Of a DNA stretch of 64,000 nt, positions 33,385-35,476 are shown piece by piece. This DNA is from Opitutia bacterium (GTDB lineage Bacteria; Verrucomicrobiota; Verrucomicrobiia; Opitutales; Opitutaceae). Position 1 is the stretch's first letter. Every line of letters starts with the position of its first letter. Position numbers and translations under genes: made by a program. The notes below the pieces were generated by a model, which saw nothing but the letters and a program-made list of their open reading frames with translations, was not told where the DNA came from and did not search any database. The stretch is taken from contig JACPPI010000031.1 in NCBI GenBank assembly GCA_016190985.1, positions 1 through 64,000 on the forward strand. Direction: 5' to 3'.

Positions 33385-33541
33385 GCTCCGGCGCCGGAAA
33401 TCTTCCGGCGCGCCGCCGCCCGGTTTTTGTCGGACCGCCCGCGTCTTTCTGAAGCGATATTTCACCGCGCGCGGCGGACCGGAAAGTTGGCGTTAAGTTC
33501 GGCGCGCGGCGCGCCGTAGGGGCAGTTGTCCGCGGCAAGTG

Positions 33542-33569
33542 TCACGGGCCGGCGACCCGAAGCCGATCT
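33542..33569 (+). promoter_or_regulatory. Weak FliA-type promoter of the first flagellin
   Basis: TCAC-N16-GCCGATCT: the -10 is good and the -35 is poor. Transcription would begin about 7 nt before the leader hairpin at 33583-33598, which makes it plausible. No better promoter is seen in the 291-nt gap between fliD and the flagellin gene. Confidence 0.4.
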
Positions 33570-33582
33570 CACGGGGCGAATC

Positions 33583-33613
33583 GCGACACGGACGTCGCAA
33601 CAACCATCAAGGA
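33583..33613 (+). promoter_or_regulatory. Flagellin leader hairpin with GGA loop plus GGA at the RBS
   Basis: GCGAC-ACGGAC-GTCGC (33583-33598) is a 5-bp stem with a GGA in the loop. AAGGA (33609-33613) is the ribosome-binding site, 7 nt before the ATG. The second flagellin has the same stem with a different loop. This layout is that of CsrA-controlled leaders. Confidence 0.6.
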
Positions 33614-33620
33614 AGATACC

Positions 33621-34436
33621 ATGTCAGTCGTAATCAACACGAACTACGCGGCCACCGTGGCTGCGAACAACCTAGCCGCCTCCAACAATATGTTGCAGAA
33701 GAGCCTCAACCGGCTCTCCAGCGGCTCGAAAATCGTCAGCCCCGCCGATGACGCGGGCGGTCTGGCCGTGTCCATGAAGCTGTCCGCCGCCGCCGTCCGC
33801 CAGGGCGCCGTCGCGACGAACATCGGCAACGCGGTCTCGCTGCTCCAATCCCAGGACGGCGCGATGAAAGTCACCGGGCAGGTCCTTCAGCGCATCAGCG
33901 AGCTGAAGACCCTCTACTCGGACGTCACCAAGAGCGCCAGCGACAAGAGCAACTACGACGCGGAGTTCCAGGCCCTGCAGGCCCAGCTGATCTCCAACGC
34001 CGCGGAAAAATTCAACGGTGTGTCGCTCTTCGGCTCGTCCGCGATCGGCAACGTGAACGTCACCGACGACGGGAGCACGACGGTGACCATCGCCGCCCGT
34101 GACCTCGGCAGCACCGGCAGCGGGGTCGGCGTGATTTCCGACACCAGTGTCACCTCGCTGGCCAGCGTGTCGGTCGCGCAGATCTCCACGGCGATCCAGA
34201 ACCTGGCGACCATGCGCGCCACCAACGGCTCCGAGCAGAGCCGCCTCGGGTTCGCCAGCGAGCTGGTGACGATCAACAAGTCCAACCTCGAGGCCGCCAA
34301 CAGCCGCATCGTGGACGTGGATGTCGCGTCGGAGTCCACCCAGCTCGCCCGGTGGAACATCCTGGTGCAGGCCGGCACCGCCATGCTCGCCCAGGCCAAC
34401 CAGAGCTCCCAGAGCGCGCTCAAGCTTCTCCAGTAA
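33621..34436 (+). CDS. fliC: Flagellin 1
   Basis: The protein has 271 residues with only D0/D1-type regions and a small middle. The N-terminus SVVINTNYAATVAANNLAAS, then LNRLSSGSKIVSPADDAGGL, and the C-terminus SRIVDVDVASESTQLARWNI, then LVQAGTAMLAQANQSSQSAL, are highly typical. The central region (about 130-200) is Ser/Thr/Gly-rich and would offer sites for O-glycosylation by the cluster at 35.7-44 kb. It has a strong AAGGA ribosome-binding site. The paralogue 224 nt downstream has equal length. Confidence 0.97.
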   Translation: MSVVINTNYAATVAANNLAASNNMLQKSLNRLSSGSKIVSPADDAGGLAVSMKLSAAAVRQGAVATNIGNAVSLLQSQDGAMKVTGQVLQRISELKTLYSDVTKSASDKSNYDAEFQALQAQLISNAAEKFNGVSLFGSSAIGNVNVTDDGSTTVTIAARDLGSTGSGVGVISDTSVTSLASVSVAQISTAIQNLATMRATNGSEQSRLGFASELVTINKSNLEAANSRIVDVDVASESTQLARWNILVQAGTAMLAQANQSSQSALKLLQ

Positions 34437-34467
34437 GCCGCGCTGACCGCGAGAAGCCCTCCCCGCG

Positions 34468-34497
34468 GGGGCCGGCGCCCACCTGAGGCCCGGCCCC
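34468..34497 (+). terminator. Hairpin after flagellin 1
   Basis: GGGGCCGG (34468-34475) and CCGGCCCC (34490-34497) form an 8-bp stem with a 14-nt loop, 31 nt past the stop. There is no U-tract directly after it, only a CTTTAATTTTC stretch about 30 nt on. Partial termination is likely. Confidence 0.45.
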
Positions 34498-34624
34498 GCG
34501 TTCCTCCCCCCCTCCCTCCCGCCCAACCCTTTAATTTTCTCCTCCTCACGCCTCCCCGCGTGAACCCCCTTTGCGGCTTCCGCCGCAGACGGCTCGATCC
34601 GGAGCCGCTTCCCCCGGATACGTG

Positions 34625-34652
34625 GCGACGACGGATGTCGCAAAATCAAGGA
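34625..34652 (+). promoter_or_regulatory. Second flagellin leader hairpin with GGA loop and GGA RBS
   Basis: GCGAC-GACGGAT-GTCGC (34625-34641): same stem as flagellin 1 but a 7-nt loop, so the stem and GGA are kept while the loop changes. The right side reads ACGGATGT, close to the CsrA consensus core. AAGGA (34648-34652) is the ribosome-binding site. No clear FliA promoter is seen upstream of this gene. Confidence 0.6.
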
Positions 34653-34660
34653 TAGATACC

Positions 34661-35476
34661 ATGTCAGTCGTGATTAATACCAACTACGCAGCGACGGTTG
34701 CCTCCAACAACCTCGCCGCTTCCAGTGCGATGCTGCAGAAGAGCCTTAACCGGCTCTCCAGCGGCTCGAAAATCGTCAACCCCTCCGATGATGCGGGCGG
34801 CTTGGCGGTGTCCATGACGTTGTCCGCCGCCGCCGTCCGCCAGGGCGCCGTCGCGAGCAACATCGGGAACGCCGTCTCGCTCCTGCAGACCCAGGACGGG
34901 GCTCTCAAAGTCAGCGGACAGGTTCTTCAGCGCATCAGCGAACTGAAGACCCTCTACTCTGACGTCACCAAGAGCGCCAGCGACAAGGCCAACTACGATG
35001 CGGAGTTCAACGCCCTGCAATCGCAGCTCACCGCCAACGCCGGGGAAAAGTTCAACGGCGTCTCGCTGTTCGGCTCCTCGGCCATCGGCAGCGTCGCGGT
35101 CACCGAGGACGGCGCCACCAACGTCAGCATCGCGGCCCGCGATCTCACCAGCACCGGCAGCGGTGTCGGCGTGATCACGGCCACGGGTGTGACCTCGCTG
35201 GCCAGCATCACCGTGGCCCAGATCTCCACGGCGATCCAGAACGTGGCCACCATGCGCGCCACCAACGGTTCCGAGCAAAGCCGCTTCGGCTTCGCCCAGG
35301 AGCTGGTGACCACCAACAAGGCCAACCTCGAGGCGGCCAACAGCCGCATCGTGGATGTCGACGTGGCATCGGAATCGACCCAGCTCGCCCGCTGGAACAT
35401 TCTGGTGCAGGCCGGCACCTCGATGCTCGCCCAGGCCAACCAGAGCGCGCAGTCGGCGCTCAAACTGATCCAGTAA
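34661..35476 (+). CDS. Flagellin 2
   Basis: The product is 271 residues from ATG 34661, since upstream codons in this frame are not flagellin-like. It is a close copy of flagellin 1 with scattered changes (for example SSAMLQKSL against NNMLQKSL, and differences in the middle segment: AVTEDGATNVSIAARDLTST). A tandem duplication that includes the leader hairpin is likely. Both copies keep intact ends. The two may be used in different filament segments or conditions. Confidence 0.97.
   Translation: MSVVINTNYAATVASNNLAASSAMLQKSLNRLSSGSKIVNPSDDAGGLAVSMTLSAAAVRQGAVASNIGNAVSLLQTQDGALKVSGQVLQRISELKTLYSDVTKSASDKANYDAEFNALQSQLTANAGEKFNGVSLFGSSAIGSVAVTEDGATNVSIAARDLTSTGSGVGVITATGVTSLASITVAQISTAIQNVATMRATNGSEQSRFGFAQELVTTNKANLEAANSRIVDVDVASESTQLARWNILVQAGTSMLAQANQSAQSALKLIQ

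Follow-up and report, generated by a model that had tools for sequence, protein, structure and literature searches.

Tandem flagellin genes of an Opitutaceae bacterium are preceded by a conserved, pseudoknotted leader RNA that is probably under CsrA-FliW control

The two tandem flagellin genes in the stretch of DNA analyzed herein (64,000 nucleotides of an Opitutaceae genome; hereafter, the window) appear to be preceded by the same conserved leader RNA in two paralogous copies, and we consider it quite probable (roughly 85%) that CsrA represses flagellin translation through this RNA and that FliW relieves the repression. The leader RNA, approximately 90 nt in length, consists of, from 5′ to 3′, a hairpin (P0), an H-type pseudoknot in which stem P1 is crossed by helix S2, a second hairpin (P3) whose loop contains GGA, and the ribosome-binding site AUCAAGGA, P3 being the 3′ module of the longer structure. 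P0, P1, S2, and P3 are helices supported by covariation. While CsrA control of flagellin has been described before, the pseudoknotted leader represents, within the reach of our searches, a new variant, and the data constitute strong evolutionary evidence for CsrA-FliW control of flagellin in Verrucomicrobiota.

The two genes and the elements immediately preceding their start codons are listed below.

33621..34436, + strand: flagellin gene 1, 271 aa (Flagellin_N 8.8e-21, Flagellin_C 2.3e-19)
34661..35476, + strand: flagellin gene 2, 271 aa, 87% protein identity to gene 1
33583..33598, + strand: P3 hairpin of leader 1, putative CsrA site 1, GCGAC-ACGGAC-GTCGC, hexaloop, loop GGA at 33590-33592
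33606..33613, + strand: ribosome-binding site of leader 1, putative CsrA site 2, AUCAAGGA, 18 nt between the GGAs
34625..34641, + strand: P3 hairpin of leader 2, putative CsrA site 1, GCGAC-GACGGAT-GTCGC, 7-nt loop, loop GGA at 34633-34635
34645..34652, + strand: ribosome-binding site of leader 2, putative CsrA site 2, AUCAAGGA, 14 nt between the GGAs

The genes, whose ATGs lie at 33621 and 34661, form a tandem pair and, judging from their sequences, are likely duplicates. The initial annotation had described a GCGAC/GTCGC hairpin with a GGA loop before both flagellins as well as another GGA inside the ribosome-binding site, and both elements were confirmed at the positions above, the loop sizes of 6 and 7 nt being correct. 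The P3 hairpins end 22 nt (leader 1) and 19 nt (leader 2) before the ATG. The folding energy of P3 gave no signal relative to shuffled sequences (56-nt segments; z = 0.06 and 0.32); the two copies alone thus prove little, and the case rests on the homologues.

We therefore turn to the flagellin leaders of the family, of which 143 were extracted (a subset of the flagellin matches found) and 141 with at least 100 nt of upstream sequence were used, two shorter ones being dropped. All 141 leaders carry a GGA at the P3 loop position together with a GGA at the ribosome-binding site, and the gap between the two was 15-19 nt in 135 of them. An uninterrupted stem of at least 4 bp encloses the GGA loop in 138 leaders, and the loop core ACGGA was found in 124. 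The stem itself varies widely among relatives (GCGAC/GTCGC, GTGGC/GCCAC, GAGGC/GCCTC, GCCCT/AGGGC, GCAGC/GCTGC, TTCGGC/GCCGAA, and others). The comparison of relatives for loss of the stem or the GGA thus showed, with few exceptions, a retained GGA and stem changes on both sides, and the earlier proposal that the conserved hairpin is a functional RNA was borne out by the retained loop GGA, the compensating stem, and the significant covariation of P3. Compared with an ANGGAN hexaloop, leader 1 has ACGGAC and leader 2 the 7-nt GACGGAT. Two features expected of a CsrA target were found, namely a GGA exposed in a hairpin loop whose stem is kept by compensation, and a second GGA overlapping the ribosome-binding site in all of the family leaders. 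According to PMC7652899, a CsrA dimer can bridge sites 10-63 nt apart; the spacings of 18 and 14 nt in the window fall inside this range, and the conserved spacing of the two putative sites suits one CsrA dimer. In three of the four leaders inspected from another family, f47 (those of G463 and G485; L252, L255), the ribosome-binding site is CAAGAAAGG and has lost its GGA, the loop GGA being kept; such leaders would keep one CsrA site and thus count against two-site control.

The initial annotation had proposed a search for csrA and fliW in the rest of the genome, and this search recovered one of each, adjacent to one another: fliW (C21:8287-8754, 3.1e-28) lies directly upstream of csrA (C21:8779-9072, 1.9e-21), and the pair sits after flgN-flgK-flgL, where flgL was named from its gene position and a Flagellin_N match. 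The best PDB matches of the CsrA by sequence were 1t3o_A and 5dmb_D, and the relative of the FliW, 5dmb_A, belongs to the same entry as the latter. The CsrA comprises 97 aa and has L4, R6, and R44, among which R6 is presumably an RNA-contact residue. A figure legend of PMC7652899 lists L4 and R44 among the residues that contact RNA. In addition, a third flagellin-like gene on the same contig (L007:9069-9935) shares an ATGA overlap with the 3′ end of csrA, so that the translation of the two would be coupled; the model search of the genome found no leader RNA before it. Flagellin genes closely 3′ of csrA also occur in G147, G030, G074, G058, and G109. Autoregulation of csrA through an ACGGAGG at its own start was considered and dropped, the motif being present in one of 30 relatives. 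By eye, approximately seven of 30 family csrA genes (L078-L107) have a GGA-type Shine-Dalgarno sequence and none was clear in the rest, which fits coupling to the upstream fliW.

The elements upstream of P3 in the two leaders, which the initial annotation had missed, were placed as follows.

33530..33547, + strand: P0 of leader 1, imperfect 5′ hairpin with one C/A mismatch, a helix with covariation support in 137 leaders
33550..33565, + strand: P1 of leader 1, pseudoknot stem, CGGC 33550-33553 / GCCG 33562-33565
33556..33575, + strand: S2 of leader 1, pseudoknot helix, CCCG 33556-33559 / CGGG 33572-33575
34572..34587, + strand: P0 of leader 2, 5′ hairpin
34590..34607, + strand: P1 of leader 2, pseudoknot stem, CGGCT 34590-34594 / AGCCG 34603-34607
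34597..34619, + strand: S2 of leader 2, pseudoknot helix, ATCCGG 34597-34602 / CCGGAT 34614-34619

In relatives, P1 is, for example, CGGCGC/GCGCCG, and its loop pairs with a stretch just 5′ of P3 to form S2, for example GGTCC/GGACC. Covariation was assessed with a script of our own that follows the approach of R-scape and is distinct from that program; the null consisted of 200 tree-based alignments, and alignment columns with more than 50% gaps were left out. The leaders were aligned with a covariance model (R1) that included P0, P1, and P3 and omitted S2, so that the covariation tests the crossing helix fairly; of the 142 matches aligned, 137 rows were retained after removal of an opposite-strand match inside a gene, one match truncated at its locus end, and duplicate rows. 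Among 4186 column pairs in these 137 distinct leaders, eight reached E=0.000, and every one of them lies inside one of the four helices: 1-19 and 3-17 in P0, 35-72, 36-71, and 38-69 in S2, 31-53 in P1, and 84-130 and 85-127 in P3. The next pair, 4-16 (E=0.07), also belongs to P0.

When all leaders were aligned jointly with MAFFT, the pseudoknot was misaligned, and the three pairs obtained were confined to P3 (two) and P0 (one), with none in S2. When the leaders were aligned class by class, an S2 pair ranked on top with E=0.000 for class B and E=0.015 for class A2, and the top pair of class A1 was in P3 (E=0.025), with no S2 pair. A scan for pseudoknots at or below -14 kcal/mol was positive in 89% of the leaders versus 48% of shuffles, a weak control because free H-type pseudoknots easily arise in GC-rich sequence; this free-energy scan picked a non-conserved pseudoknot in several leaders, including both leaders of the window.

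Two further alignments supported the same helices. In 44 second-gene leaders (alignment A1, drawn from 54 class-B representatives with degenerate copies of G164 and some others omitted and three odd class-B leaders excluded earlier), the four helices were 94.8% paired versus 85.8% in shuffles, a value reached by none of 500 shuffles, and 28-40% in slid controls, and all five S2 pairs had changed on both sides. In 29 distinct leaders outside the training of both models (alignment A3), S2, whose register was chosen after inspection of this alignment, was 93.1% paired versus 67.1% in shuffles and at most 53.5% in slid controls, and P3 was 98.6% paired. All five S2 pairs again showed changes on both sides; this measure was reached by eight of 500 shuffles, and the other measures by none. 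It could be argued that the conservation merely reflects recent duplication and shared ancestry without any RNA function, as the 87% identity of the two flagellins of the window might suggest; the covariation, however, exceeded the 200 tree-based nulls and the slid controls, and the element extends to two other families, which leaves this explanation a practically negligible probability.

In the host genome, the only model matches below E=1 were the two flagellin leaders. Of the distinct matches outside the training set, 29 were checked, and all precede a flagellin-type ORF: 26 as judged by a script (flagellin frame right behind), two that have a split alignment, and one, with a truncated flagellin-like 143-aa ORF, by eye. 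A model designated R2 was positive in 26 of 384 genomes of the class, 20 from the same family and six from two other families (f26: G232, G341, G400; f47: G320, G463, G485), and in 20 of 387 phylum-wide genomes, 19 from the same family and one from f26. The class and phylum counts are lower bounds owing to strict filters, and absence elsewhere is thus not proven by them. A csrA gene was present in all six positive genomes of the other families and in all 20 of the same family in the class search.

A survey of the family covered 200 genomes sampled from a larger group: 108 of them have a detected flagellin, 98 a csrA, and 99 a fliW, with csrA and fliW together in 97 and flagellin and csrA together in 94. 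Among the 14 genomes with flagellin and no csrA, several were incomplete, several contained fragments alone, and two (G010, G083) had one weak match near E=1e-4. Seven assemblies (G014, G039, G087, G106, G108, G114, G191; completeness 68-93%) keep the element with neither csrA nor fliW, which speaks against the CsrA reading, and hence csrA may be unassembled in them or the RNA may not need it. G163, likewise without both genes, has a P3-like hairpin and a weak whole-leader match (E=0.048). Also against this reading, csrA and fliW are present in G038 and G094, which belong to one genus, and yet their flagellin leaders lack the element; G114 of the same genus has it. Pointing the other way are two genomes in which neither gene was found: in G193, the flagellin is interrupted by three stops and the P3 stem is broken, and in G001, 98% complete, the leader match is weak (E=0.2), although the flagellins there are located at the ends of contigs.

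The architecture of the leaders was compared with two characterized systems. According to PMC4894983, the flaA leader of Campylobacter jejuni, a proven CsrA target on the basis of mutation and footprinting tests, has two GGA stem-loops 21 nt apart. The leaders described herein share with it a flagellin gene transcribed, here presumably, by sigma-28, a loop GGA and a ribosome-binding-site GGA about one dimer apart, compensatory stem changes, and the presence of fliW and csrA in the genome (PMC4894983). The flaA leader is 45 nt long with two stem-loops, whereas the present one spans approximately 90 nt and has a 5′ hairpin and a pseudoknot (PMC4894983), and here, unlike in flaA, the ribosome-binding site is without a covariation-supported hairpin. 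In Bacillus subtilis hag, there are two CsrA sites, one of them over the Shine-Dalgarno sequence, and FliW is the antagonist (PMC7652899, citing Yakhnin 2007; PMC6529632). Common to hag and the present leaders are two CsrA sites, putative here, with one at the Shine-Dalgarno sequence, and a fliW gene adjoining csrA (PMC7652899, PMC6529632); the pseudoknot of the Opitutaceae leaders goes unmentioned for hag in the text of these two sources available to us. Since parts of the leader match the proven CsrA targets flaA and hag, two-site CsrA repression relieved by FliW is the most likely mode of control. The CsrA control of the FliW type put forward in the initial annotation is thus supported by the csrA and fliW genes, the conserved GGAs, and the flaA-like architecture, and was incomplete because the pseudoknot and the 5′ hairpin had been overlooked.

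By analogy with B. subtilis and C. jejuni, we infer that CsrA binds to these leaders and that FliW relieves it in the following manner. A CsrA dimer would hold the P3 loop and the ribosome-binding site and thereby block the 30S subunit, free FliW would remove CsrA, and cytoplasmic flagellin would occupy FliW, so that flagellin would be made while it is exported.

GGA-loop hairpins were also sought before flagellins of other bacteria. Of 108 such leaders, 45 scored at least 6 for a GGA-loop hairpin, versus a shuffle mean of 4.55; without 17 Opitutaceae-type leaders the count was 29 of 91, and a GGA near the start was found in 105 of the 108. Hairpins of this kind were seen 5′ of flagellins in Actinobacteria, Lachnospiraceae, Treponema and relatives (Spirochaetaceae), and Lentisphaeraceae, and mostly not in Sphingomonadales (L154, L156, L186, L188, L194, and others). 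Outside Verrucomicrobiota, R2 gave no match below E=0.2 among 80 named loci. In Rfam 15, no family scored above its gathering threshold between 33300 and 34800 of the window, the one sub-threshold match being on the other strand, and no match was obtained at 10 related loci. Among the matches listed in a literature search of titles and abstracts, with few subscription journals covered, no paper described a pseudoknotted flagellin leader.

Small H-type pseudoknots located 5′ of ribosome-binding sites are known riboswitch folds, and the leader might accordingly be a metabolite riboswitch with such a pseudoknot as its aptamer. This idea is, however, at odds with the lack of an Rfam match, with the scarcity of conserved unpaired letters in the loops of the pseudoknot, and with the confinement of all significant covarying pairs to the four helices, none of them pointing to a competing fold; neither the conserved unpaired aptamer letters nor the competing expression fold expected of a riboswitch was found. 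Furthermore, pairing of at least five bases between the third-loop region and the ribosome-binding site occurred in 20% of leaders versus 15% of shuffles, and, with so little excess, anti-Shine-Dalgarno pairing by this region was rejected. We thus regard a riboswitch as highly improbable.

In the surroundings of the leaders, two further elements were located.

33493..33520, + strand: sigma-28-like promoter of flagellin gene 1, TTAAGTTC-N12-GCCGTAGG, weak match
34547..34562, + strand: GC-rich hairpin between the flagellin genes, 5′ of leader 2, at a place where strong hairpins are commoner than in shuffles

The former was named a promoter on the basis of the sigma-28 consensus; it was not the top scorer in a scan of its own genome, and its position near -130 is that of the best site in many first-gene leaders of relatives. 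Since the best sigma-28-like site lies near -130 in many first-gene leaders, the message would begin with P0. The promoter is mostly missing from second-gene leaders, in many of which a GC-rich hairpin lies upstream instead: a strong hairpin was found at this inter-gene place in 26% of them versus 1% of shuffles, and no significant covariation was detected for the equivalents of 34547-34562. This hairpin, often followed by CCCTTT, may act between the flagellin genes as a weak terminator or be a site of processing.

Structured 5′ ends stabilize abundant mRNAs, and P0 and the pseudoknot might thus form an mRNA-stability domain only, protecting the 5′ end or stopping decay independently of CsrA. 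P0 starts just after the expected sigma-28 transcript start in first-gene leaders, and second-gene leaders, mostly devoid of a promoter, nevertheless keep P0 and the pseudoknot behind another hairpin. A plain hairpin, however, would be enough for end protection, and a crossing helix fixed beside P3 would seem to suggest more; we take this explanation to be possible, with the odds somewhat against it. Alternatively, the pseudoknot might itself recruit a protein (FliW, a second CsrA dimer, or some other factor) and thus serve as a binding platform, with the leader integrating two inputs. It lies 7 nt (leader 1) and 5 nt (leader 2) from P3 in the window and is kept together with P3 in most leaders, and the unpaired CG joining the two (34621-34622 in the window; C51 and G52 of alignment A1) was invariant in 44 of 44 leaders. 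The pseudoknot loops, in contrast, have few conserved letters, and the third loop, pyrimidine-rich in most leaders of the family, is A-rich in the other families, so that a sequence-specific contact is not evident; we consider such a platform rather unlikely. More doubtful still is the proposal that the leader represents a new family of structured cis-regulatory RNAs in Verrucomicrobiota, whose pseudoknot would act as a second, separately read sensor (of FliW, flagellin-chaperone complexes, or another factor), resulting in two-input gating of flagellin translation. If the pseudoknot does matter for CsrA or FliW, the reading of flagellin mRNA would involve more than the two GGA sites, which might help to explain the contact of FliW with the hag leader.

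Within the CsrA-FliW mechanism preferred here, P0 and the pseudoknot could, more tentatively, form a compact 5′ domain that shields a very abundant mRNA and prevents misfolding of P3 with upstream sequence, and P3 shielded in this manner might provide each tandem gene copy with its own intact switch. When the pseudoknot bases of 126 leaders were held unpaired in folding calculations, the mean probability of P3 rose from 0.72 to 0.90, as compared with 0.86 when random upstream bases were held (Wilcoxon 1.4e-7 for the difference). In the window, the probability changed from 0.89 to 0.58 in leader 1 and from 0.67 to 0.79 in leader 2, both below the random control. Shielding of P3 by the pseudoknot is thus a weak proposal, with an effect above the random control over the 126 leaders and below it in both leaders of the window. 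Among the ideas on the pseudoknot, we rank a shielding or stability domain first and a second binding platform next, followed by the riboswitch, which is unlikely.

Tandem flagellin arrays offer a natural set of variants for testing the leader. In G106, eight flagellin copies stand in a row, each with its own leader. G164 (L040, L041) has seven and six flagellin copies in two arrays, and in several of these copies S2 and P3 are kept, P1 is short, and P0 is changed or missing, which amounts to a natural deletion series.
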